Shown here one piece after another: positions 46,666 to 60,984 of a stretch of 64,000 nt of DNA. The stretch's first letter is position 1. Every line of letters begins with the position of its first letter. Made by a program: the position numbers and the translations under genes. This stretch comes from Pseudomonadota bacterium (lineage in GTDB: Bacteria; Pseudomonadota; Alphaproteobacteria; JACQOE01): contig JACQOE010000063.1 of assembly GCA_016202695.1 (NCBI GenBank), forward strand, positions 1 to 64,000. Reading direction: 5' to 3'. Under the pieces are notes generated by a model that did no database searches, had not been told where the DNA came from, and was given only the letters and a program-made list of their open reading frames with translations.

Positions 46666-47427
46666 ATGGCCAACGTCCGCCTCATCGCCCGACTCGACAT
46701 CAAGGGGCCCGACCTCATCAAGGGCGTGCAGCTCGAGGGCTGGCGGAAGGTCGGCCGGCCGGCCGAGTTCGCGCGCCGCTACTACGAGGAGGGCGCCGAC
46801 GAGCTCCTCTACATGGACGTGGTCGCCAGCCTCTACAACCGCAACAACCTTACCGACATCGTCGCCGAGACGGCGCGCGAGATCTTCATCCCGCTCTGCG
46901 TAGGCGGCGGCGTGCGCAGCGTCGAGGACGCCGACAAGCTGCTGCGCGCCGGCGCCGACAAGGTCGCCGTCAACACCGCCGCGACCAAGCGCCCAGAGCT
47001 GATCTCGGAGCTTTCCCGCCGCTTCGGCTCGCAGGCGGTGGTGCTGTCGATCGAGGCCAAGGGTGCCGGCCCCGGGCGCTGGGAGGCGCGGACCGACAAC
47101 GGCCGCGAGGCCACCGGCCTCGACGTCGTCGCCTGGGCGAGGCGAGGCGCCGAGCTGGGCGCGGGCGAGATTCTCGTCACCGCGGTCGACCGCGACGGCA
47201 CCTTCCGCGGCCTCGACCTCGATCTCGTCGCCGCGGTGTCGGCGGCGGTGACGATCCCGGTGATCGCGGGCGGGGGCTTCGGCGCCCCCGAGCACCTGGC
47301 CGAGGCGGTGCTGAAGGCGGGAGCCGACGCGGTGGCGATCGCCCGCGCGCTCCATCACCAGCGCACCACGCTCGCCCAGGTCCGCGTCCGCGGCCTCGCC
47401 CAAGGGCTGAACCTGAGGCGGCTATGA
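46666..47427 (+). CDS. HisF-type cyclase subunit in a surface-glycan cluster
   Basis: LIARLDIKGPDLIKGVQLEGWRKVGRPAEFARRYYEEGADELLYMDVVASLYNRNNLTDIV...CVGGGVRSVEDADKLLRAGADKVAVNTAA. Confidence 0.9.
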   Translation: MANVRLIARLDIKGPDLIKGVQLEGWRKVGRPAEFARRYYEEGADELLYMDVVASLYNRNNLTDIVAETAREIFIPLCVGGGVRSVEDADKLLRAGADKVAVNTAATKRPELISELSRRFGSQAVVLSIEAKGAGPGRWEARTDNGREATGLDVVAWARRGAELGAGEILVTAVDRDGTFRGLDLDLVAAVSAAVTIPVIAGGGFGAPEHLAEAVLKAGADAVAIARALHHQRTTLAQVRVRGLAQGLNLRRL

Positions 47428-48083
47428 GCGCCCGCGTCGCCATCGTCGACTACGGCCTCGGCAACCTGTTCAGCGTCTGCCAGGCGGTCGCGCGCTGCGG
47501 GGCCGAGCCCGAGCTGACGGCGGAGCCCGGGCGCGTGCGGGCGGCCGGGCGGCTGATCCTGCCCGGGGTCGGCGCCTTCGCCGACGGCATGGCCGGGCTG
47601 CGTGCGCGCGGGCTGGACGCGGCCGTCCGCGCCGCTGCCGCCGCCGGGCGGCCGCTCCTCGGCATCTGCCTCGGGATGCAGATGCTGTTCGCCGAGAGCG
47701 AGGAATTCGGCCGGCACCAGGGGCTCGGGCTCATCCCGGGGCGGGTGGTCGCGATCCCGCCCAGCGGTGCCGACGGGAAGCCGCACAAGATTCCCCACAT
47801 CGGCTGGAACGGCCTTATCCCCGCCGGGGGGCGGAGCGGCTGGGAGGGGACGCCGCTTCGCGCGCTCGCGCCGGCGACCGCGGTCTACTTCGTTCACTCC
47901 TTCGTCGCCGATCCGGCCGAGCCTGCCGACCGCCTGGCCGAGTGCGACTACGACGGGCTCCGGCTCACGGCCGCGGTCGGGCGCGGTAACGTCGTCGGCC
48001 TCCAGTTCCACCCCGAGCGGAGCGGCCCGGCCGGGCTGGCGGTGATCGCCGCCTTCCTCGACGGAGGGGCCGGCGATGGCTGA
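47424..48083 (+). CDS. HisH-type glutamine amidotransferase subunit
   Basis: VAIVDYGLGNLFSVCQAVARCG...LILPGVGAFADGMAGL...PLLGICLGMQMLFAESEEFG...VYFVHSF. Confidence 0.93.
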   Translation: MSARVAIVDYGLGNLFSVCQAVARCGAEPELTAEPGRVRAAGRLILPGVGAFADGMAGLRARGLDAAVRAAAAAGRPLLGICLGMQMLFAESEEFGRHQGLGLIPGRVVAIPPSGADGKPHKIPHIGWNGLIPAGGRSGWEGTPLRALAPATAVYFVHSFVADPAEPADRLAECDYDGLRLTAAVGRGNVVGLQFHPERSGPAGLAVIAAFLDGGAGDG

Positions 48084-50106
48084 GCGGGCGTCGGTCACCG
48101 TCTGGGTGGACCATCTTTCGCTCGGCGCGCTCGTCCGGCTCGCGCTCCTTGCGCTCCGCCGCCCGGTGGCGCGCGTCCGCTACCTCACCGCCTCGCCGGC
48201 GCTTGCGCCCCTGCTCCGTGCGCTGGGCGGACGGGTCGCGGGCCTCGGGCGGGTCGAGTACGCCGCCCATCGCCTGGGTGGCGCGCCGCTCCCGGAGGCG
48301 ATCCAGGGAACCGCGCGTGCCTTCCTCGATGCGCTCCGGGCCGAGCTTGCCCGCGATCCGCTGGTGCTGGGGGCCGTCCGCGCGCACGGGCTCGGCGGCG
48401 AGCGGCTGGTCCATCACCTCCTCACCCGCGCCTACGTGGTGGTCCTGCGGCCGATCGAGCTGGTGCTGCTTGCCCGCGCGCTGGCGCCGGCGGAGGCGGG
48501 CGTCTTCCTCGTCCGCCGCTCGTCCCTTTTGCCGCGCCTCGCCTTGCACCTCGGGGGGCCGGAGATCGTCGCCTACCGCGCCCCCTTCGCCGCCCTCGGG
48601 TTCCGGCCCCGCGCGAGCCATGCCCTCGACGAGTATGTCGCCCTCGGCTACTTCTGCGGCTCGGCCTCGGCGCTCGCCGGCACGCTCCGCTTCCTCGTCG
48701 CCTCGGCGTTGCGCGCCGTTCTCGCCGGGCGCGACCCGGCCCCGGCGGGCGCGGCGGCCGCCAACATCGCCGTCCACTTCTGCCAGCACGACCACGGGCG
48801 CGACGACCTCACCGACGTCTACTGGTGGTTCGATTCCGGCATCGCGCCGGCGAGCGTGACGGTCTTCGTCGACGATCCCGGCAACCGGCTCCTGATCGAC
48901 GCCCTCGTCGGCGAGGGCTTCGACGTGCGCGTGCGCCCGACCCGCCTGGGGCGCGTGCCCGGGGCCGGCCGCCCGTTCGCGATGCCGGCGGGCGGCCTGT
49001 TGCGCGGCGGGGCGGCGGCCCTCGGCTTCCTTTTGAGCGCGCTCGCGCGGGCGCCTCGGCGGGCCTGGATCGCGGTCGGCCTCGCCGATTTCCTTGCCCG
49101 CCACGCCGCCTATGTCGCGCTCTACCGGGGGCTCGGCGTCCGGCTCCTCTTCCAGCTCCATGACCTCGACGGCGAGAAGGCGGTCAAGGCCGAGGCGATC
49201 CGGACGCTCGGCGGCCTCTCGCTGGCGGCGCACTCGAGCGTGCTCCCCCTGTGGGACATCGTCGTCGACAAGGTGAACGACGTGCTCCTCACCTGGGGGC
49301 CGCACACCCGCGACGAGGTCTACACCTTCTTCCCCTGCCGGGCGGCCTTCGCCGTCGGCTTTCCCTACGGCTACACCTTCGCCGCGCTCCGCCCGGCGGC
49401 GCGGGCCCTGCGCGCGCGCTTCCCCGGGCGGTTCCTCCTTTGCTATCTCGATCAGAACCTGCAGGCGGACATAGCCACGCCCCTCGGCGCGCACCTCGCC
49501 GCTTGGCGCGTCCTCCTCGCCGTCCTCGCGCGCCACCGCGAGGCGACACTCCTCTGGAAGATGAAGAAGCCGCAGGAGGCCACCCTCGCGGCCCTCCTGC
49601 CGCGGCTCCCCGCGCTCGCCCGGCTCCTCGCCGACGGCAGGATCGTCGTCGTCGCGCGCGACCAGGAGGGGCGGCGGCGCCGGCCGGCCGAGGCCGGCCT
49701 CGCCGCCGACCTCGCGGTCGGCCTCGGGGTGAGTTCCGCCGCCGCCGAATGCGCCTTCGCCGGCATCCCGGCGCTGCACTTCGAGCCGGTCGGGCTGGCC
49801 GCCAACGGCTTCGTGCGAAGCGCGAGCGGGAGCGCACTCCTCGCCGACGAGGCCGCGCTTCAAGAGGCGATCGAGGCGGCGATCGAGGGGCGCTTCGCCG
49901 GCCACGCCCAGGCGGCGCGGGCCGCCCACGCCCGGCTCGACCCCTTCCAGGACGGGCGCGGGCATCTCCGGACCGGAGTCGTCATCGCCGCGCTGCAGCG
50001 GGCGCTCGCGCAGGGCGCCGGGCCCGAGGCGGCGCTGGCCGCGGCGGCGGCGGCGCTCGAGGCGGACGCGCCCGCGCCCGAGCGCCGGGCCGCCCGGCAA
50101 GGATGA
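48076..50106 (+). CDS. Large surface-carbohydrate biosynthesis protein, family unassigned (glycosyltransferase-like C-terminal half)
   Basis: 676-aa ORF in operon phase (overlaps hisH by 8 bp); FLLCYLDQNLQADIATPLGAHLAAWRVLLAVLARHREATLLWKMKKPQ...LGVSSAAAECAFAGIPALHFEP. Confidence 0.7.
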   Translation: MAERASVTVWVDHLSLGALVRLALLALRRPVARVRYLTASPALAPLLRALGGRVAGLGRVEYAAHRLGGAPLPEAIQGTARAFLDALRAELARDPLVLGAVRAHGLGGERLVHHLLTRAYVVVLRPIELVLLARALAPAEAGVFLVRRSSLLPRLALHLGGPEIVAYRAPFAALGFRPRASHALDEYVALGYFCGSASALAGTLRFLVASALRAVLAGRDPAPAGAAAANIAVHFCQHDHGRDDLTDVYWWFDSGIAPASVTVFVDDPGNRLLIDALVGEGFDVRVRPTRLGRVPGAGRPFAMPAGGLLRGGAAALGFLLSALARAPRRAWIAVGLADFLARHAAYVALYRGLGVRLLFQLHDLDGEKAVKAEAIRTLGGLSLAAHSSVLPLWDIVVDKVNDVLLTWGPHTRDEVYTFFPCRAAFAVGFPYGYTFAALRPAARALRARFPGRFLLCYLDQNLQADIATPLGAHLAAWRVLLAVLARHREATLLWKMKKPQEATLAALLPRLPALARLLADGRIVVVARDQEGRRRRPAEAGLAADLAVGLGVSSAAAECAFAGIPALHFEPVGLAANGFVRSASGSALLADEAALQEAIEAAIEGRFAGHAQAARAAHARLDPFQDGRGHLRTGVVIAALQRALAQGAGPEAALAAAAAALEADAPAPERRAARQG

Positions 50107-50864
50107 GCCGCGCCATGAGCCCAGCGACGAGCGGCGAGCGCGTCATCGCCATGATCCCGGCAAGGCTCGGGAGCGAGCGGCTGAGGTACAAGAATCTCCG
50201 GCTCTTGGCCGGCAAGCCGGTGATCGCCTACGCGATCGAGGCGGCCAAGGGGGCCGGGGTGTTCGACCGGGTGGTGGTGAACTCCGACGGCGCGGCGCTC
50301 AAGGAGATCGCCGATCGCTACGGCGTCGAGTTCCTCCTGCGCGATCCTAAGCTCGCCGATTCCCAGGCCAAGTCGGACGACGTGGTTGCCGACTTCATGG
50401 CCCGCGTGCCCGGCGACCTCCTCGCCTGGGTCAATCCGATCGCGCCCCTGCAGACGTCCGCCGAGGTGCGGGCGGTGGTCGAGCACTTCATCGCGAACGG
50501 GCTCGACTCGCTGATCACGGTCGAGAGCAGGCAGGTCCACTGCGTGTTCGAGGGCCGGCCGGTGAACTTCTCCCTCGACGGCCTCTTCGCCAAGACCCAG
50601 GACCTGGTGCCGGTGCAGCCCTTCGTCTACTCGGTGATGATGTGGCGCTACGCCACGTTCCTCGCCCACTACCGGGCCCACGGCCATGCCCTGCTCGCCG
50701 GCAAGGTCGGCTACTTCCCGGTGCACCGGCACTCGACCATCATCCTCAAGTACGAGGAGGACCTGCGGCTTGCCGAGGCGGTGCTGCGGGCGCGCGCGTC
50801 CGCGCCTCCGCCGCCCGAATACGACCCGGTGGTGGCGCGGATCGAAGGAAAGGGGGGACGATGA
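50103..50864 (+). CDS. Acylneuraminate cytidylyltransferase-like (NeuA/PseF-like)
   Basis: VIAMIPARLGSERLRYKNLRLLAGKPVIAYAIEAAKGAGVFDRVVVNSDGAALKEIADRYGVEFLLRDPKLADSQAKSDDVV. Confidence 0.9.
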   Translation: MSRAMSPATSGERVIAMIPARLGSERLRYKNLRLLAGKPVIAYAIEAAKGAGVFDRVVVNSDGAALKEIADRYGVEFLLRDPKLADSQAKSDDVVADFMARVPGDLLAWVNPIAPLQTSAEVRAVVEHFIANGLDSLITVESRQVHCVFEGRPVNFSLDGLFAKTQDLVPVQPFVYSVMMWRYATFLAHYRAHGHALLAGKVGYFPVHRHSTIILKYEEDLRLAEAVLRARASAPPPPEYDPVVARIEGKGGR

Positions 50865-52042
50865 GCAAGCCGCTCGACATTCTCGTCGTCGGCGCCGGCA
50901 TGTACGTCACGGGCCGCGGCTGCGACGGCTATGCCGGCACCATCATGCCGGCGCTCCTCGAGGGGCGCCGCCGGGGCCTGGTGGGGCGCCTCGCGGTCGC
51001 CACCACCCGCGCCGATTCGGCGATGGAAGCGGCGGCGACGGTGGAGGCGCTGGCGGCGCGGATGGACGTTACCGGCGGCTGCGAGGCTTACCCCGAAAAG
51101 GGCGAGAGCCGCCAGGCATTCCTTACCGCGCTCGACGCCTTCGCGCCCGACGCGGCGATCGTCTCGGTCCCGGATCACCTGCACGCGTTCATCGCCGTCC
51201 CGCTCGCCGAGCGCGGCATCCACGCGCTGGTGGTCAAGCCGCTCGCCGGCACGCTTGCCGATGCCCGCGCCATGCTCGCCGCGGCCGAGCTCGCCGGCAT
51301 CGTCGCCCAGGTCGAGTTCCACAAGCGCCTCGATGAATCCAATCTTGTGATGCGCGAGGTGGTGGCCTCGGGCGAGCTGGGCAAGCTCCTCTACGCCACG
51401 GTCGAGTACAGCCAGCGCAAGATGGTGCCGCGCGGCATCTACCGGAGCTGGGCGCACGAGACCAACATCTTCCAGTACCTCGCGGTCCACTACGTCGACC
51501 TCCTGCACTGGATGACCGGCTTCCGACCGCGGCGCGTGGCCGCCTTCGGGCAGCGGGACTATCTCGCCGGCATCGGCATCGACACCTGGGATTCGGTGCA
51601 GGCGATGATCGAGTGGGAACGGGGCGACGGCGGCACCTTCGTCTCGACCCACGTCTCCAACTGGGTCGACCCGGACGAGACCTCGGCCCTCTCCGACCAG
51701 CGGATCAACCTGGTCGGCACCAGCGGGCGCTACCAGGCCGACCAGAAGCACCGCGGCATCCAGACCGTGCAGGACGGCTCGGGCGTGCGCGACCTCAACC
51801 CCTACTTCACCGGCGCCTGGCGCGAGGGGCGCGACGGGCCGATCCGCTTCCACGGCTACGGGGTGGAGAGCGTGCTCCGCTTCGTCGCCGACGTGGTCGA
51901 CGTCGGCGCCGGGCGCACCACGCTGGCCCGGATCGAGGCGGAGCGGCCGACCTTCGCCTCGGCGCTGGTCTCCACCGCGGTCATCGAGGCGGTGCGGCGG
52001 AGCCTGGAGTCGGGGGGCGCGCGGATCGAGGTGGAGGCATGA
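50861..52042 (+). CDS. Gfo/Idh/MocA-family oxidoreductase
   Basis: LDILVVGAGMYVTGRGCDGYAGTIMPAL...AAIVSVPDHLHAFIAVPLAERGIHALVVKPLAGTLADARAML. Confidence 0.9.
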   Translation: MSKPLDILVVGAGMYVTGRGCDGYAGTIMPALLEGRRRGLVGRLAVATTRADSAMEAAATVEALAARMDVTGGCEAYPEKGESRQAFLTALDAFAPDAAIVSVPDHLHAFIAVPLAERGIHALVVKPLAGTLADARAMLAAAELAGIVAQVEFHKRLDESNLVMREVVASGELGKLLYATVEYSQRKMVPRGIYRSWAHETNIFQYLAVHYVDLLHWMTGFRPRRVAAFGQRDYLAGIGIDTWDSVQAMIEWERGDGGTFVSTHVSNWVDPDETSALSDQRINLVGTSGRYQADQKHRGIQTVQDGSGVRDLNPYFTGAWREGRDGPIRFHGYGVESVLRFVADVVDVGAGRTTLARIEAERPTFASALVSTAVIEAVRRSLESGGARIEVEA

Positions 52043-52100
52043 GGCGGAGGTCGCATCCGGCCCGGCGCGGGCGCAACGGCGGCGTGGGGCGCGTGGTCGC

Positions 52101-52898
52101 ATGATCCTGTGGTTCGCCGAGCCGCCCCGGGACTGGCCCCGCCCCGAGAACGGCGAGGCGGCCCCCCGCCTCGGCGCCTTCCGCCCGGCCGGCGCCGAGC
52201 CGTCGGCGGGCGAGGGCCCGGCCCTGGTCGAGGTGAGCGAGGCGGCGCCGCCGGCGATGGGCGCGGGCGCCGCCGCGTGGCTCCTAGGCGCCGGGCTCGG
52301 CGGGCACGCCCCCCTGATCGAGGCGGCGGCGGCGACCGGGCTTCCGGTGCTGGTTGCGGTCAACGGCCTCGGCGGCGCCGGGCTCGCCGGGGTGCGCCGT
52401 CGGGTGGCGGGCGGCGCCCTGGTGCTCGCCTTCGATGCCCGCGGCCAGGAGGACGATGCCTTCCTCGAGCAGCTTGCCTGGCTCGATTCGCAGACGGAGC
52501 CCTTCGCCGTGATCGCGGACTCGCCCGCCCGCTTCGCCGAGGCGGCGCTCTTCGGGCCCCACGGCCTGATCGTGCCCAAGGGCGGGCGGATCGAGGCGGA
52601 TCCGGTGCTCCGCATCTTTCGCGCCCGCGCCGCCGGCGCGCCGCGGCCGATGTCGCCGGCCGAGGTGGATGCGCTTCAGGGGCGCGAGGCGTCGCTCACG
52701 GTGGCGCGCGCGCGGGCGGCGGGCGAGCGCCTGGAACCGGGCGACCTCGCGGTCGCGGTGACCGAGTCCAAGGGACTTTCGCCCGCCCTTGGCGAGCGCG
52801 TCGTCGGCCAGCGGCTCCGCTATCCGATCCGCCCGGGCGAGGCGCTCACCTTCGGCCATCTCGCTGGGCCCGCGGTCGCGGAGGGGGAGGCGCGATGA
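52101..52898 (+). CDS. SAF-domain protein resembling a shortened sialic acid synthase (NeuB-like)
   Basis: C-terminal REASLTVARARAAGERLEPGDLAVAVTESKGLSPALGERVVGQRLRYPIRPGEALTFGHL; N-terminal region shorter and poorly conserved. Confidence 0.65.
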   Translation: MILWFAEPPRDWPRPENGEAAPRLGAFRPAGAEPSAGEGPALVEVSEAAPPAMGAGAAAWLLGAGLGGHAPLIEAAAATGLPVLVAVNGLGGAGLAGVRRRVAGGALVLAFDARGQEDDAFLEQLAWLDSQTEPFAVIADSPARFAEAALFGPHGLIVPKGGRIEADPVLRIFRARAAGAPRPMSPAEVDALQGREASLTVARARAAGERLEPGDLAVAVTESKGLSPALGERVVGQRLRYPIRPGEALTFGHLAGPAVAEGEAR

Positions 52899-53575
52899 GC
52901 TGCGGCGTCTCGGTCGTCATCCGGGCGAGGGACGAGGAGCGATGGATCGGCTCCTGCCTCAACGCGGTCGCCAACCAGGACCACGCCGAGGTCGAGGTGG
53001 TGGTGGTCGACGACGCCTCGAGCGACGCGACGCCGGCGATCGCCCGGCGCTTCGGGGCGCGCGTGATCGCCTACGGCGAGACCGGGTTCAACTACTCGCG
53101 GGCGCTCAACCTCGGCATCGCCGCCGCCTCGAAGCCGCTCGTCGCCGTCCTCTCCGCCCACTGCGTGCCGGCCAACGAGCAGTGGCTGGCGCGCCTCGCC
53201 ATGCACTTCCACGATCCAAAGGTGGCCGCCGTCTACGGCCGCCAGGAGCCGCTGCCCGACAGCCACTCCTTCGACAAGCGCGACCTCTGGACCACCTTCG
53301 GGCTCGACCGCAAGGTGCAGAAGCGCGACTTCTTCTTTCACAACGCCAACGCCATGATCCGCCGCGCGCGCTGGCGCGAGATCCCGTTCAACGAGGCGAT
53401 CCACGGGGTCGAGGACCAGGACTGGGCGAAGAAGGTGCTGAACGCCGGCGGGCGGATCGTCTACGAGCCGACGGCGAGCGTGTTCCACCACCACGGCATC
53501 CATCACGCGCTGAGCGAGGAGCGCGCCGCCCGCCAGGTGCGGATCATCGAGCTGATCCGCCAGGACCTGACCTGA
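52895..53575 (+). CDS. Glycosyltransferase family 2
   Basis: VSVVIRARDEERWIGSCLNAVANQDHAEVEVVVVDDASSDATPAIARRFGARVIAYGETGFNYSRALNLGIAAA. Confidence 0.92.
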   Translation: MSCGVSVVIRARDEERWIGSCLNAVANQDHAEVEVVVVDDASSDATPAIARRFGARVIAYGETGFNYSRALNLGIAAASKPLVAVLSAHCVPANEQWLARLAMHFHDPKVAAVYGRQEPLPDSHSFDKRDLWTTFGLDRKVQKRDFFFHNANAMIRRARWREIPFNEAIHGVEDQDWAKKVLNAGGRIVYEPTASVFHHHGIHHALSEERAARQVRIIELIRQDLT

Positions 53576-53588
53576 GGCGCGAGGGGCC

Positions 53589-54278
53589 ATGGCGATGACC
53601 GTCGATGCCGTCGTTCCCATCCGCTTCGCCGACTGCTGCGCGGCGGATGGAAGCCCGCGCCTCGTACTCTCCGGCAGGCCGCTCTGGGAGCTTACGCTGG
53701 AGCGCGCCGCCGCCTCGCCGGCGCTTCGCGCAGTGGTCGTCGCCTACGACGATCCGCGCTTCGCGCCGCACCTCGAGCCGTGGCGGGGCCGGGTGCGCGG
53801 GCTCGTGCGCCCGCCCGAGCTGAGTCTTGCCGGCAAGACCACGCTCGACGTGCTCGCCTTCGTTTCCCGCACCCTCCAGTCCGAGGGCTCCGGCCCCGAC
53901 TATCTGATGCTGCTCGAGATCAGCCATCCCTTCCGCCCCGCCGGGATCATCTCCGAGATCGTCGCCGCGGGCCGCGCCCAGCGTCCGGACAGCCTGGTGA
54001 CCTGCCGGCCGGTCCACTACAACTTCTGGCGCCGGCGCGGGGGCGGCCCGGTCGAGCGGCTGGCGGGCGCGGGCGACCGCGCCGGGGTGGCCATGTTTCA
54101 GGAGATGGTCGGTATCGGTTCGCTCTTCTCGCCGCGCGCGCTTCTCACCGACAACCCCTTCGGCGAGCAGGTCGACATCGTGCCCATCGACCGCTTCTGG
54201 ACGGCGATCGACGTTCGCGACGCCGACGGGCTGTGGCTCGCCGAGCGCTACCTCGAACGGATTGGCGGGGAGCCCTGA
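53589..54278 (+). CDS. Divergent cytidylyltransferase-like protein (NeuA superfamily)
   Basis: VDAVVPIRFADCCAADGSPRLVLSGRPLWELTLERAAASPALRAVVVAYDD...LMLLEISHPFRPAGIISEIVAAG...IDVRDADGLWLAERYL. Confidence 0.7.
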   Translation: MAMTVDAVVPIRFADCCAADGSPRLVLSGRPLWELTLERAAASPALRAVVVAYDDPRFAPHLEPWRGRVRGLVRPPELSLAGKTTLDVLAFVSRTLQSEGSGPDYLMLLEISHPFRPAGIISEIVAAGRAQRPDSLVTCRPVHYNFWRRRGGGPVERLAGAGDRAGVAMFQEMVGIGSLFSPRALLTDNPFGEQVDIVPIDRFWTAIDVRDADGLWLAERYLERIGGEP

Positions 54279-54283
54279 GGGCG

Positions 54284-56092
54284 ATGCCGACCGCCGTCCT
54301 CTATACGCCCGAGGAGGCCCGCCGGTTCCGCGCCGAGCGGCCGCCGGCCTCGGCCGTGCTCGCGCTGAGCCCGGACGCGCGCGCCGCCCTTCGCGGCCTC
54401 GACATCCCGGTACGGGCGACGACGGCGGTTTACGGCGACTCGGGGCATGCGCGCGTCGCCGCGCTGGTCCGGCGCGCCGACCGCGAGATCGGGCGCGCGC
54501 TCGCCCGCGAAACCGCGCTCGGGGTCGCGGCGCGCCTCACGCTCCGCCACGAGGTGCAGATGGTCGCCGCCGCCGCCGCCCGGCTCTGGGTGATGCTGGG
54601 GCGCTCGGGGCCGGGGCCGTGGCTGGTGCCGGAGCCTTCGGGCTGGGCGGTCGCAGAGGAGCGGGCCGAGGCCCAGGCGCGGCTTCTCGCCCGGATCGCG
54701 GGCCTCCCGGAGAGCTTCCCGGACCCCCTGCGCCAAAGCCCGTTCGCGGCGCCGCTTCGCTGGCTCAACCGCCTCGCCGCGCGGGCGCTGCGTTCGCGCC
54801 GGGTGGCGCTCTTCACCGCCTTCCAGTCGGGCATGGGGCCGCTCGCCGCCGGCGCCGGCGCCTTGAGGCCGCCGGTTCGCGCGGTGGCGCTTCGCGGCTT
54901 CCGCGGCCACGCCAACGAGCACCTTCGCCCCTTCGTCGCCCTGTGGCGCCTGGCGCGGGGGGCGCGGGCGACGCAAACGCTGGTGGTGCCGGCGACGCCT
55001 TCGGCCGCGGCCAGCGCCGCCGCCCGTCGCGCGCTCGGCGCCCTCACCGGCCCGGCCGTGCGCCGCGGGGTCGCGGCCTTCGAGGACTCGCTCCTCGCCC
55101 AGACCGCGCTCACCGAAGGCTTGGTTTCCGAGATGGGCGCGCTGATCGCGCTCCTTCGCCCGAGGGCGCTGGTGGCGCACGCGCTCCGCTGGGCCGACGA
55201 CGCGGCGCTGGGCGAGGCCGCGGCGGCGGCCGGGCTGCCGAGTGTCCTCATCAGCCACGGAAGCCACCCCCCGCCCGCCGGCGGGAGAGGGGGGGTGGTG
55301 GCCCGCGCCGTGCTCGCGCCGCACGCGGAAGGCTTGCTGGTGAGCCCGCTCGCCGATGCGGCCCTCGTCCAGTCGCCCCACGCCGAGGCCGCGGCCAGGG
55401 CCTTCGATCCGGCGATGCCGCGCCGGCGCATCCGGCCGGCGCTGTGGGCCTGGCGGGGCCTCCCCGAGCCGCCGGTGCGCTCGCCGATCCGCACCGTCCT
55501 GCATGCCGGCACCTTCAAGCGGCTCGCCCGCGCCCGGCCGTGGATGTACGAGACCGCTGACGAGTTCGTCGAGGGTCTCACGGCGCTGGTCGTGGCGCTC
55601 GAGTCCGTGTCCGCGGCGCGACTCGTGGTCCGGCTCCGCCCCGCGTCCGAGTGCGCGCCCGAGACGCTCCGCGCGCTCCTTCCCGAATCCGGGCGGGTGG
55701 AGGTCAGGCTCGGCGGCTCATTCCTCGACGACCTCGCCGCCGCCGACCTCCTGGTCAGCTTCTCTTCGACCACGCTGGAGGAGGCGCTGCATGCCCGCCG
55801 GCCGGTGGTGCTGTGGGGCGGCTCGATGCGCTATCGGCACCTCGCCGCGCGTACCCGCCCGCCGGAGCCGGGCGACCGCGCCGCGGTCTACGCCCCGGCG
55901 CGGGCCGAGGACCTCGGCCCCCTGATCGCCGCCGTGCTCGCCGCCCACGCCGGGCGTCCGCTCACCGACGCCGAGCTGGCAGCCCACGTCTGGCCCGCGG
56001 GTGCGCCTGACGCCGTTGCCGTCCTCGACGAGATCGCCGTGCCCCTGCCGCGCCGCGGGCTGGGGATCGAACCAAGGGAGTTGGCACCATGA
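54284..56092 (+). CDS. Surface-carbohydrate biosynthesis protein, glycosyltransferase-like, family unassigned
   Basis: ATG at 54284; LPSVLISHGSHPPP...RTVLHAGTFKRL...FLDDLAAADLLVSFSSTTLEEALHARRPVVLWGGSMRYRHL. Inside the track's 770-aa ORF. Confidence 0.65.
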   Translation: MPTAVLYTPEEARRFRAERPPASAVLALSPDARAALRGLDIPVRATTAVYGDSGHARVAALVRRADREIGRALARETALGVAARLTLRHEVQMVAAAAARLWVMLGRSGPGPWLVPEPSGWAVAEERAEAQARLLARIAGLPESFPDPLRQSPFAAPLRWLNRLAARALRSRRVALFTAFQSGMGPLAAGAGALRPPVRAVALRGFRGHANEHLRPFVALWRLARGARATQTLVVPATPSAAASAAARRALGALTGPAVRRGVAAFEDSLLAQTALTEGLVSEMGALIALLRPRALVAHALRWADDAALGEAAAAAGLPSVLISHGSHPPPAGGRGGVVARAVLAPHAEGLLVSPLADAALVQSPHAEAAARAFDPAMPRRRIRPALWAWRGLPEPPVRSPIRTVLHAGTFKRLARARPWMYETADEFVEGLTALVVALESVSAARLVVRLRPASECAPETLRALLPESGRVEVRLGGSFLDDLAAADLLVSFSSTTLEEALHARRPVVLWGGSMRYRHLAARTRPPEPGDRAAVYAPARAEDLGPLIAAVLAAHAGRPLTDAELAAHVWPAGAPDAVAVLDEIAVPLPRRGLGIEPRELAP

Positions 56093-57717
56093 CCACGGGC
56101 CGCGACGCGCTCACCGTGCTCGACTGCACCTTCCGCGACGGCGGCTACTACAACGACTGGGACTTCCCGCCCGACCTCGTCGGCGAGTACCTGTCGGCGG
56201 TGACGACGGCCGGGATCGACGCGGTCGAAATCGGCTTCCGCTTTACCCCCAAGGAGCGGTTCTACGGCGCCTTCGCCTACTCCACCGATGCCATGCTGGC
56301 GACGCTGCCGCTCCCCGCCGGCGTGACCCTGGGCGTGATGTGCAACGCCAAGGACCTGCTTGTCTATCCTGGCGGCGGCGAGGCCGCGGTCGAGGCCCTT
56401 TTCGCCCCCGCCGGCGACAGCCCGCTCGAGCTGGTGCGCGTCGCCGCCCACTTCGCCGAGGCGCCCAAGCTGGGCCCCGCCCTCGCCCGGCTCAAGGCCA
56501 AGGGCTACGCGGTCGGGCTCAACCTCATGCAGGCGGGCGGCAAGACCGCCGAGGAGTTGGGCAGGCTGGCCCAGACGGCGAGCGGCTGGGGCTGCGTCGA
56601 CGTGCTCTACTTCGGCGACTCGCTCGGCAGCATGGACCCGCCGATGATCGCCGCCACCATCGCCGCGCTCCGCCGCGGCTGGGCGGGGCCGGTCGGCGTC
56701 CACACCCACAACAACATGGGCCTCGGGCTCGCCAACAGCCTGGCCGCGATCGCGGCCGGGGCGACCTGGATCGACGGCACCATCACCGGCATGGGCCGCG
56801 GCGCCGGCAACACGCGGATGGAGTTCCTGCTCCTCGAACTGGCGCGGAAGGGGCTCGCCCGCGTCCGCCCCGAGGCGCTCTTCCGCCTCGTCTGCGAGCG
56901 CTTCGAGCCGATGCAGGCGCGCTACGGCTGGGGGCCGAACCTCTTCTACTACCTCGCCGGCCTCTACGGCATCCACCCGACCTACGTCCAGCAGATGTCG
57001 GCCGACGGCCGCTACGAGGCCCCCGACATCCTGGCCGTGATCGAGGCGCTGAGGCGATCGGGCGGCGCCTCCTTCAGCGGCGACTCATTGCGCAACGCCG
57101 TCGCCGCCAGCTACCGCGAGCCGGCCGGCGCATGGTCGGCCGCCGGCTGGGCCGACGGGCGCCCGCTGCTCGCGGTCGCCGCCGGGCCGGGCGCGGCCCG
57201 CCACCGCGAGGCGCTGCTTGCCTACATCCGCCGCGCCGATCCGGTGGTGGTGGCGCTCAACCACGTGCCGACGCTTCCCCCCGAGGCGGTCACCGCCTAC
57301 GCCGCCTGCCATCCCACCCGGCTCCTCTCCAACGCCCCCCTCTACCGCCGGCTCGGGCGCCCGGTGATCCTGCCGGCGCGGGGCGCGCCGGCGGGCGTGG
57401 TCGAGGCCCTCGCCGGCGTCGAGGTGCTGGACTACGGGATGGCGGTGGCCGAGGGCCGCTTTGAGGTCGGCGCCACCGGGTGCACCGTGCCGGCGCCGCT
57501 GGTGGCCGCCTACGTGCTGGCGCTCGCCGCCGCCGCCGGGGCGAGGAAGGTGCTGCTCGCCGGCTTCGACGGCTACGGCGCCAACGACCCGCGCAACCAG
57601 GAGATGGCGGAAGTGATCGCGCTCTTCCGCAAGGCCGCGCCCGGACTCCCGCTGGCCGCGGTCACGCCCTCGGCCCACCGCCTCGCCCAGAGCTCGATCT
57701 ACCTGCCGGAGCCGTGA
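56089..57717 (+). CDS. HMGL-type (DRE-TIM) aldolase fused to a C-terminal Rossmann-like domain
   Basis: LTVLDCTFRDGGYYNDWDFPPDLVGEYLSAVTTAGIDAVEIGFR...VGVHTHNNMGLGLANSLAAIAAGATWIDGTITGMGRGAGNTRMEFLLLEL; C-terminal ~180 aa ends GARKVLLAGFDGYGANDPRNQEM. Confidence 0.88.
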   Translation: MTTGRDALTVLDCTFRDGGYYNDWDFPPDLVGEYLSAVTTAGIDAVEIGFRFTPKERFYGAFAYSTDAMLATLPLPAGVTLGVMCNAKDLLVYPGGGEAAVEALFAPAGDSPLELVRVAAHFAEAPKLGPALARLKAKGYAVGLNLMQAGGKTAEELGRLAQTASGWGCVDVLYFGDSLGSMDPPMIAATIAALRRGWAGPVGVHTHNNMGLGLANSLAAIAAGATWIDGTITGMGRGAGNTRMEFLLLELARKGLARVRPEALFRLVCERFEPMQARYGWGPNLFYYLAGLYGIHPTYVQQMSADGRYEAPDILAVIEALRRSGGASFSGDSLRNAVAASYREPAGAWSAAGWADGRPLLAVAAGPGAARHREALLAYIRRADPVVVALNHVPTLPPEAVTAYAACHPTRLLSNAPLYRRLGRPVILPARGAPAGVVEALAGVEVLDYGMAVAEGRFEVGATGCTVPAPLVAAYVLALAAAAGARKVLLAGFDGYGANDPRNQEMAEVIALFRKAAPGLPLAAVTPSAHRLAQSSIYLPEP

Positions 57718-57720
57718 GGA

Positions 57721-58449
57721 ATGCGGCCCGCGATCGTCATCCCCGCCCGCTACGCCTCGAGCCGCTTCGAGGGCAAGCCGCTGGCGATGATCGCCGGGCG
57801 GCCGATGATCGCGCGCGTCTTCGAGCGTTGTGCCGCCGCGCTCTCGCCCGAGCGCACCTTCGTCGCCACCGACGACGAGCGGATCGCCGCCTGCTGCCGG
57901 GCCGAGGGTATCCGGGTGGTGATGACCGCGAGCGACTGCCTCACCGGCACCGACCGGGTCCACCAGGCATCGCTCCAGATTCCCGGCGACCTCTTCGTCA
58001 ACGTCCAGGGCGACGAGCCGCTGATCGAGCCCGGCGACGTGCGCGCCGTGATCGAGGCGGCCGAGCGGGAGCCGGGCACGGTGGTCAACGCCATGTGCGC
58101 GATCACCGAGGAGGCGGACTTCCGGAGCCCCAACGTGCCCAAGGTGGCGGCCGCGCCCGACGGGCGGCTCCTCTACATGAGCCGGGCGCCGATCCCCACC
58201 GACAAGCGCCACCGCTTCCGCGGGGCGATGAAGCAGGTCTGCATCTACGCCTTCCCGCGCGCCGCGCTCGAGCTGTTCGCGCGCGCCGGGCGGAAGACGC
58301 CGATCGAGGAGATCGAGGACATCGAGATCCTCCGCCTCCTCGAGCTCGGGCACGAGGTCCGCATGGTGCCGGTCTCGGGGGCCTCGATCGCGGTCGACGT
58401 GCCGGCGGACGTGGCCAGGGTGGAGGCGGTGCTGCATGCGCGCGCTTAG
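57721..58449 (+). CDS. 3-deoxy-manno-octulosonate cytidylyltransferase-like (KdsB)
   Basis: AIVIPARYASSRFEGKPLAMIAGRPMIARVFERC...VVMTASDCLTGTDRVHQASLQIPGDLFVNVQGDEPLIEP...EDIEILRLLELGHEVRMVPV. Confidence 0.93.
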   Translation: MRPAIVIPARYASSRFEGKPLAMIAGRPMIARVFERCAAALSPERTFVATDDERIAACCRAEGIRVVMTASDCLTGTDRVHQASLQIPGDLFVNVQGDEPLIEPGDVRAVIEAAEREPGTVVNAMCAITEEADFRSPNVPKVAAAPDGRLLYMSRAPIPTDKRHRFRGAMKQVCIYAFPRAALELFARAGRKTPIEEIEDIEILRLLELGHEVRMVPVSGASIAVDVPADVARVEAVLHARA

Positions 58450-59110
58450 CGCCTACGGCCTCGCCGTCTTCGACTGCGACGGCGTGGTGCTCGATTCCAA
58501 CCGCCTCAAGTCGGAGGCTCTGGCCAAGGCGCTGGCCGACGAGCCGGCGGAGCGGGTCGCGGCCTTCGTCCGCTACCACCAGGCCACCGGCGGCGTCTCG
58601 CGCTACGAGAAGTTCCGTCACTATTACGCGGTGATGAGCCCGCGCGCCGACGTGCAGGCGGCGGTCGACGGGGCGCTGGCGCGGCTTGCCGGCATCCTCC
58701 GCGACGAGCTGGTCCGCTGCCCCGAGGTCCCGGGGGTGCGGCGCGCGCTCGAGCGGCTGCGAGCCGCGGGCGTCCCCTGCGCTGTCAACTCGGGCGGCGA
58801 CGAGGCGGAGCTTCTCGCCGCCTTTCCCCGGCGCGGGCTCGACGCCTACTTCGCCGCCGTCCTGGGGAGCCCGCGGACCAAGGCCGAGAACATGGAGCGC
58901 CTGCGCGAAAAGGGGCTGTTGCGCCTCCCCGGCCTCTACTTCGGCGATGCCAGGAAGGACATGGAGACGGCCGAGGCCTACGGGTTCGACTTCGTTTTCG
59001 TCTCGGCGCGCTCGGACTGGGCCGACGGCGCCGAGGCGGCGCGGGCGCGCGGCCATGGCGCCATCGCCGACTTCGACGAGCTCCTCGCGCGCGCGGAGGG
59101 CGGCGGATGA
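58436..59110 (+). CDS. HAD-superfamily phosphatase
   Basis: LAVFDCDGVVLDSNRLKSEALAKALADEP...VPCAVNSGGDEAELLAAFP...GLYFGDARKDMETAEAYGFDFVFVSARSDW. Confidence 0.9.
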   Translation: MRALSAYGLAVFDCDGVVLDSNRLKSEALAKALADEPAERVAAFVRYHQATGGVSRYEKFRHYYAVMSPRADVQAAVDGALARLAGILRDELVRCPEVPGVRRALERLRAAGVPCAVNSGGDEAELLAAFPRRGLDAYFAAVLGSPRTKAENMERLREKGLLRLPGLYFGDARKDMETAEAYGFDFVFVSARSDWADGAEAARARGHGAIADFDELLARAEGGG

Positions 59111-60984
59111 TCGTGCTCCTCGACGGGGTGGCGCGCTGGCACGGGGCGCAGGCCGAGCACGTGATCCACTGGTCGCGGGTCGACGTGGAGGGGCGCGACA
59201 TCTCGCTTCCCGTCGAGACCGACCGGCGGGTCGAGCGCATCCGCGACGAGTACCTCACCTGGGTGCGCGCCTTCGGCGAGACGCCGGTCGAGGGCAGGCC
59301 GCTCAAGGACCACGTCATCCTCGCCCCCGGGCTCTCGCTGTGGTGGATGACGCTTCTCGCCGAGAAGAGCCCGATGAAGTCGCCGGTCATCTGGCAGGTG
59401 TTCAAGCTCCGGGCACTGGAGCTGGTGACCGAGACCATGGGCATGCTCGCCTTCGTCTACTGCGGGCCGAACCCCCTCCTGGCGGCGATCTTCAGGCGCT
59501 GGTGCGAGCAGGGCGGGCGCGCCTTCAGCTGGGAGCGCCGCGGGCGACGGCCGCGGGGCGACGGCCGCGTCAGCCTGGGGCGGCGGGTGAGCCGGCTGCC
59601 GCACCGGCTGCAGGGCCTGATCTGGGTCTGGCACAGCTGGTGGCGGCGCTGGCGGCGTATCCCCCGCCGGCGGACCGAGCCGGTCGTCGGCCCCACCCTC
59701 GTCACCTACGTCCCCAACCTCGACCTCGAGGCGCTGAAGGCGGGTCGCTTCCGCTCGCACTACTGGAACGGCCTGCACGAGGTGCTGGAGAAGCGCGCGA
59801 GCGGGGTGAACTGGGTGTGGCTGTATACGCCGACATCCCAGCTCTCGCTCCGCGGCACGGTCCGCGCCTGCCGGCGGCTCAACCGCAAGGGCGGGCGCGA
59901 CCGCTTCTTCATGCTCGAGGAATTCCTGCCGGCGCGGGCGCCGTGGGCGATCTCGCGCCGGTTCTGGCGCCTGAGCGGCGAGGGGCGGCGCTTGGGCGCG
60001 CGCCCGCTTCGCTTCCGGCTCGGGGATTCGCGGATCGACTTCGAGCCGCTGATGGCCCACGACTGGGCGGCCTCGCTCTACGGCATCGCCGCCGCCGAGG
60101 CGGTCGCTTACGCTGCCATGTTCGAGCGTCTTGCGGTCCGGCTGCCGGCCCGGCCCTGGGGCTGCTACCTGTGGGAGAACCAGCCCTGGGAGCAGGCGTT
60201 GGTCGCGGCCTGGAGGCGCGATCCCAAGGCCAGCGTGATCGCCAACGAGCACGACGTCTTGAAGCCGCTCAATCTCCGCCTCTTCGCCGATCCGCCGACC
60301 TACGAGGACACCGGCCCCTCGGCGCCGCCGCTGCCGCACCTGCTGGCGGTGAACGGGGCGCACGCCGAACGGCACCTGGCGCGCGCGGGTTTCCCGGCCA
60401 AGCGGATGGTGGCCACCGAGGCGCTCCGCTTTCAGACGCTCGCCGCCGCCAAGCCGGCGCCCGAGCAGCCCGCGGCACGGACGCTCCTTCTCGTCACCGG
60501 CTACCTCGAGGGCGAGACCCGCTTCCAGCTTCGTCTGGTGGCTTCGGCGGCGCGCCTCGGCGGCCTCCGCTTCTTCGAGCGGGTGCTGGTCAAGGGCCAC
60601 CCCTTCCTGCCGGTGAAGCCGATCATCGAGTCGATGCGCATGCCCTTCAATTACGAGGTTTCCGCCCGGCCGCTTACCGAACTGTTCCCGCTCGCCGCGG
60701 TGGCGGTGATGGCGAACTCGACCGGGGCGGTGCTCGACGCCGCCTTCGCCGGCGTCTCGGTAGTGGTGTGCGATGCGCTCGACGGCTTCGACTTCTCGCC
60801 GCTTCGCGGGCTGGAGCAGGTGCGCAAGGTGGCCAACGGCCACGATCTCGTCGAGGCATTGAAGGCGCCGCTCCGCGTGGTGCTGCCCGACGACTTCTTC
60901 CACCTCGATCCCGAGCTTGGGCGCTGGCGGCGGCTGATCGAGGCGCTCGATTCCGTCGCCGCCGAGACGGAGGCGCGGCCATGA
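59107..60984 (+). CDS. Surface-carbohydrate biosynthesis protein (TIGR04326-like by recall)
   Basis: LAPGLSLWWMTLLAEKSPMKSPVIWQVFKLRALEL...GCYLWENQPWEQALVAAWRRDPKASVIANEHDVLKPLNLRLFADP. Family name from memory. Confidence 0.65.
   Translation: MIVLLDGVARWHGAQAEHVIHWSRVDVEGRDISLPVETDRRVERIRDEYLTWVRAFGETPVEGRPLKDHVILAPGLSLWWMTLLAEKSPMKSPVIWQVFKLRALELVTETMGMLAFVYCGPNPLLAAIFRRWCEQGGRAFSWERRGRRPRGDGRVSLGRRVSRLPHRLQGLIWVWHSWWRRWRRIPRRRTEPVVGPTLVTYVPNLDLEALKAGRFRSHYWNGLHEVLEKRASGVNWVWLYTPTSQLSLRGTVRACRRLNRKGGRDRFFMLEEFLPARAPWAISRRFWRLSGEGRRLGARPLRFRLGDSRIDFEPLMAHDWAASLYGIAAAEAVAYAAMFERLAVRLPARPWGCYLWENQPWEQALVAAWRRDPKASVIANEHDVLKPLNLRLFADPPTYEDTGPSAPPLPHLLAVNGAHAERHLARAGFPAKRMVATEALRFQTLAAAKPAPEQPAARTLLLVTGYLEGETRFQLRLVASAARLGGLRFFERVLVKGHPFLPVKPIIESMRMPFNYEVSARPLTELFPLAAVAVMANSTGAVLDAAFAGVSVVVCDALDGFDFSPLRGLEQVRKVANGHDLVEALKAPLRVVLPDDFFHLDPELGRWRRLIEALDSVAAETEARP

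Follow-up and report, generated by a model that had tools for sequence, protein, structure and literature searches.

Synthases of the NeuB/PseI/LegI type carry a TIM barrel (PF03102) together with a SAF domain, and NeuB is about 350 aa long. SuyA, a SAF subunit that is encoded separately, is the SAF part of the two-part lyase SuyAB. SuyAB is the only heteromeric member of its superfamily (PMC6336799). NeuB is a domain-swapped dimer in which the SAF domain caps the barrel of the partner monomer (PMC6795526, PMC7591256). In N. meningitidis NeuB, this cap gives the other monomer one direct active-site residue, Arg314, which holds the N-acetyl group of ManNAc in place (PMC6795526), and the equivalent residue of Caulobacter NeuB, Arg322, was among those mutated (PMC7591256). 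The nearest precedent for loss of the barrel is found in fish, where the type III antifreeze protein consists of a SAF domain alone and derives from the C-terminal domain of a sialic acid synthase (PMC7737890).

The window, that is, the whole stretch of 64,000 nucleotides analyzed here, belongs to an assembly of 100 contigs that is 87% complete with 4.7% contamination. It encodes a 265-aa NeuB-type SAF protein without a barrel, which is the subject of this report, and the following features were identified.

46666-48083, AglZ/WbuZ-like HisF and HisH, upstream of the cassette in the same window
50103-50864, + strand, NeuA1, cytidylyltransferase-like, 253 aa, N-terminal half PseF-like (PF02348, E=2.4e-19; TIGR03584 below cut-off)
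50861-52042, + strand, Gfo/Idh/MocA oxidoreductase, 393 aa, in the dehydrogenase slot (PF22725, 5.9e-16; PF01408, 2.7e-9)
52101-52898, + strand, the 265-aa barrel-less NeuB-type SAF protein
52305-52358, + strand, barrel remnant, residues 69-86 (HAPLIEAAAATGLPVLVA), at NeuB profile positions 136-153 and co-linear with the SAF match
52692-52862, + strand, SAF domain, residues 198-254 (PF08666)
52761-52766, + strand, Thr221-Glu222, at or next to Arg314-Pro315 of N. meningitidis NeuB
52895-53575, + strand, GT2 glycosyltransferase, 226 aa, its start overlapping the SAF stop in ATGA (PF00535, 2.1e-24)
53589-54278, + strand, NeuA2, degenerate cytidylyltransferase-like (PF02348, E=0.01, below cut-off)
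56089-57717, + strand, HMGL/4-hydroxy-2-oxovalerate-aldolase-like protein, 542 aa (PF00682, 2.3e-25; PRK08195, 2.8e-35, below cut-off)
57721-58449, + strand, KdsB-type cytidylyltransferase (PRK13368 above cut-off)

The ORF at 52101-52898 was intact and showed coding-like in-frame codon bias from end to end, the non-SAF part included. PF08666 was the sole Pfam match of the protein (21.9 bits, barely over the cut-off of 21); residues 1-190 matched no NeuB model of Pfam or NCBIfam, PF03102 included. A NeuB profile of 28 sequences, drawn from the genome's own NeuB and those of its class, scored 14.5 bits over residues 181-255, and the total rose to 18.1 bits with the co-linear residues 69-86, HAPLIEAAAATGLPVLV, against 1.2 for the best of 1000 shuffles. 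This short segment was the only part of the NeuB barrel still recognizable. PF08666, the NeuB profile and the lack of a usable TIM barrel thus confirm an earlier note on this DNA, which had described a SAF domain kept beside a degenerate synthase portion. The segment GLIVPKGGRIEADPVLR occurs in the protein and is set roughly at NeuB's EKHFTL by a low-confidence profile alignment. In all six frames of the 64-kb window, no NeuB barrel sequence was found beyond the remnant inside the gene itself, indicating that no hidden or frameshifted full-length NeuB gene lies there; the frameshift restoring full length that the note had envisaged was not found in the window.

When the SAF protein itself was the query, tblastn-type searches of 96 genomes of the class, genome contigs, plasmids, 399 genomes of the phylum and viral contigs gave no real relatives. 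Relatives were reached only by using the neighbouring NeuA2 and GT2 as probes and by reading the neighbourhoods; Gfo/Idh as a probe gave nothing useful, and TIGR04326 gave unrelated clusters only. One relative is a 165-aa protein in genome G121 of the same class and the other a 183-aa protein in G392 of the same phylum and another family, bringing the SAF family to three known members in distantly related bacteria of different families. The gene order SAF, GT2, NeuA2 was the same in all three genomes, with GT2 and NeuA2 of the same types, and the SAF and GT2 genes overlapped by the 4 bp ATGA in each case, implying translational coupling. The GT2s of the SAF cassettes grouped together beside fused GT2s with moderate support (81/56). 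The three proteins share a family-specific signature (TE, VGR..Y.L..G...FG.L), and their N-terminal parts, of about 100-190 aa, have almost no residues in common. A full or partial NeuB was present elsewhere in all three genomes, the copy in G121 being a 211-aa open frame that covers the C-terminal part only.

The alignment of active-site residues proposed in the earlier note did not recover the catalytic residues of NeuB. The motifs of Glu25, Lys53, Lys129, His215, Glu234, His236 and Asp247, which contact PEP, metal or substrate and are kept in 39 reference NeuBs bar one Asp at Glu25, were absent from the 265-aa protein in the alignment, and the complete TIM barrel (PF03102) was missing. Arg314 of the SAF domain was replaced in all three members by Thr-Glu lying at or next to this site, the exact register moving by one residue between alignments. 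NeuB-type catalysis is therefore excluded at the sequence level, and the protein cannot act as NeuB. The SAF proteins resemble the NeuB/PseI/LegI synthases in SAF profile and fold, in their cytidylyltransferase and GT2 neighbours and in one barrel remnant, whereas they differ in the loss of the TIM barrel and catalytic residues, in Thr-Glu for Arg314-Pro315 and in length (265, 165 and 183 aa).

The position of the SAF gene is occupied by NeuB in other genomes. In 14 other genomes of the phylum (loci L110-L115 and L117-L124), a full-length NeuB directly preceded a fused GT2-NeuA2 protein of about 460 aa, which makes the SAF gene equivalent in position to NeuB. In 11 of the 14 loci, the gene directly upstream of this slot NeuB encoded a 2-hydroxyacid dehydrogenase of the phosphoglycerate dehydrogenase type; the corresponding dehydrogenase slot holds Gfo/Idh in the window and an AroE-like dehydrogenase in G121. 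These 14 cassettes are like that of the window in GT2 (47-52% identity), NeuA2, gene order and an upstream dehydrogenase, and are unlike it in having a full NeuB with Asn at Arg314, GT2 and NeuA2 fused, and a 2-hydroxyacid dehydrogenase rather than Gfo/Idh. All 14 slot NeuBs had Asn at the Arg314 position and Ser at Glu134; of 25 other NeuBs, 24 had Arg at position 314. Since Arg314 positions the N-acetyl group, the substrate of the slot enzymes is probably not N-acetylated. The cassette of dehydrogenase, NeuB or SAF protein, GT2 and pseudo-NeuA is widespread in several families of the phylum and apparently undescribed.

Other enzymes were also observed around the same transferase module. At L089:9690-12702 (contig C64 of the window's own genome), an SDR, an HpcH/HpaI aldolase and a GT2-NeuA2 fusion adjoin, with KdsB on the other strand, and the aldolase occupies the NeuB slot. 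L083:8043-13051 and L084:6650-12881 contain NeuA1, a GT2-NeuA2 fusion, Gfo/Idh, a DAHP-synthase-like enzyme and an AroE-like dehydrogenase. The aldolase and DAHP-synthase-like variants are different 3-deoxy-2-keto acid enzymes around one GT2-NeuA2 module. Weak "NeuB" matches at L061, L062, L083 and L084 were rejected as other enzymes of the PEP-aldolase superfamily, of the DAHP synthase or KdsA type.

Two cytidylyltransferase-like genes had been assigned to the cassette. Of these, only 50103-50864 (NeuA1) keeps the NeuA-type nucleotide-binding loop (IPARLGSERL-KN); the C-terminal DxD metal motif of NeuA1 is missing, as in its nearest relatives at L016 and L017. These relatives adjoin SIS, inositol-monophosphatase-like and Gfo/Idh genes, and at L017 also a phosphoglycerate-dehydrogenase-like gene. 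The gene at 53589-54278 (NeuA2) lacks the loop, as the CTP-binding motif R-x-x-S-K-x-x-x-K-N was missing from all 20 aligned NeuA2 members. It was called divergent, which is apt for its sequence and not for its orientation, both genes being on the + strand. GT2 relatives (47-53% identity) are nearly all fused to NeuA2, and NeuA2 is a fused domain of GT2 in most of its own relatives; loop loss and fusion together suggest a role in CMP-sugar binding.

A full-length NeuB, which the earlier note had proposed to look for elsewhere, is present on another contig of the genome, C50, where a canonical NeuB (TIGR03569 above cut-off) was found with NeuC, NeuD and WbuX. The absence of canonical nonulosonate (NulO) partners reported earlier thus describes the cassette and the window only and does not hold for the genome. 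Within the window, the HMGL-type aldolase lies with KdsB and an HAD phosphatase at 56089-59110 and is a candidate for supplying a 3-deoxy-ulosonic acid by another route. Extended to 56089-60984, the group comprises aldolase, KdsB, HAD and a TIGR04326 surface-carbohydrate protein, a possible pyruvate-aldolase route to CMP-ulosonic acid.

The reading that we favor, with a probability of roughly 0.55, is that the 265-aa protein represents a pseudo-synthase derived from NeuB which has lost the PEP-condensing barrel and kept its SAF cap, sits in the NeuB slot and assists the GT2/NeuA2 machinery as a small subunit without catalytic function. SAF homology, loss of catalytic residues, synteny in the same slot in three lineages and the ATGA overlap are established from the sequences, and from these we infer the subunit role in the transferase machinery. 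The family's SAF domain is no closer to slot NeuBs than to other NeuBs, which counts against this reading, and a slot NeuB is at most a possible ancestor.

A NeuB origin of the SAF domain was supported by several comparisons. The NeuB SAF profile matched the three SAF proteins with P=2e-12, consistent with a NeuB-type C-terminal SAF domain in the 265-aa protein, and a reciprocal search with the SAF-family profile among 8731 ORFs returned NeuBs as the top non-self matches. In AF2 models made with 3 or 7 sequences, the SAF domain was good (pLDDT about 93 over residues 201-250), and the N-terminal part was a low-confidence beta-alpha prediction (mean pLDDT 50 and 55) from which nothing was concluded. 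When a model built from the SAF proteins alone, with no NeuB row and usable in its SAF part but not in its N-terminal part, was compared with the PDB by Foldseek, PseI, NeuB and type III antifreeze proteins came first. The antifreeze protein, which is secreted and binds ice in fish, matches in fold; the SAF gene lies within a bacterial glycan cassette and encodes an additional N-terminal part. It is very improbable that the domain came from another SAF family, of the FlgA/CpaB or UxaA/SuyA type. The FlgA model TIGR03170 gave weak matches (E=0.004-0.18), but the C-terminal model of the FlgA P-ring chaperone, which has a cut-off of 54.65 bits, scored 16.6, and equal-sized five-sequence profiles favored NeuB SAF (P about 1e-9) over FlgA SAF (8e-4) by about five orders of magnitude; the reciprocal search, Foldseek and the shared slot also point to NeuB. 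SuyA probably belongs to another SAF clade (the profiles here compared NeuB and FlgA), and no UxaA/SuyB-type partner was seen in the cassette.

The SAF protein could also act as half of a split synthase, capping in trans a separate barrel such as the C50 NeuB, the HMGL aldolase or a DAHP-synthase-like enzyme as in L083/L084. The domain-swapped NeuB dimer, where SAF already caps the barrel of the other monomer (PMC6795526, PMC7591256), and the separate DAHP-synthase-family barrel of related cassettes speak for this arrangement. We nevertheless regard it as unlikely, because Arg314, the contribution of the cap, is replaced by Thr-Glu, which makes in-trans help to a NeuB barrel unlikely, the NeuB on C50 already contains a SAF domain, and a search of the L083/L084 DAHP-synthase cassettes gave no SAF-family match. 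Decay of a NeuB duplicate without function could account for the strong divergence, the variable N-terminal parts and the low-complexity, Ala/Gly-rich sequence of the window copy, but is quite improbable given that the ORF is intact in three lineages of different families, with coding bias along the whole gene, a conserved ATGA overlap and a family-specific signature. The earlier note had offered both a non-catalytic partner and a new synthase class. The former is supported by the absence of barrel and catalytic residues, the NeuB-type SAF domain, the NeuB slot and the recurrence in three genomes. A new class with the N-terminal part as catalytic domain in place of the barrel would fit the synthase slot and the co-occurrence with cytidylyltransferases, and is given hardly any weight since the N-terminal parts vary in length (about 100-190 aa), have hardly a residue in common and are predicted with low confidence, and no metal or PEP motif is present. 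The SAF protein is thus probably no new synthase but a conserved partner without enzyme activity in the making of a cell-surface sugar acid.

As such a partner, the SAF protein would serve the GT2/NeuA2 transferase as an adaptor or as the subunit that holds the ligand: it would bind or dock an ulosonic acid, free or in the CMP form, and perhaps the upstream enzymes too. The sugar acid would come from elsewhere, either from the canonical NeuB on C50 or from the HMGL-type aldolase (56089-57717); NeuA1 or KdsB would activate it, the Gfo/Idh dehydrogenase would adjust it and GT2 would transfer it. A tentative and rather doubtful extension is that two enzyme relics, a pseudo-synthase (the SAF protein) and a pseudo-cytidylyltransferase (NeuA2), together form a scaffold that channels substrate or sets specificity for a GT2 moving an unusual ulosonic acid; if true, this would be a previously unrecognised handling of CMP-activated keto sugars, with the full-NeuB cassettes as its catalytically complete version. 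The finding exposes a cassette that probably makes something other than an N-acetylated nonulosonic acid, and warns that a SAF match beside a NeuA gene need not mean a nonulosonate synthase.

Fragments and fusions of these genes were observed elsewhere. A 112-aa NeuA2 remnant with 54% identity lies at L081:8320-8658 in a 1.3-Mb genome (G032), the rest of the cassette being missing. The HisF/HisH-like pair of the window is of the amidation type, and a WbuX amidotransferase partner lies on contig C50 beside NeuB and NeuC (L005:14499-15755). L069:11894-15874 (G205) shows the reverse of the SAF-only case, a 229-aa NeuB that has the barrel and no SAF domain; it lies with a 594-aa NeuB-cytidylyltransferase fusion and a fusion of GT2 and NeuA.
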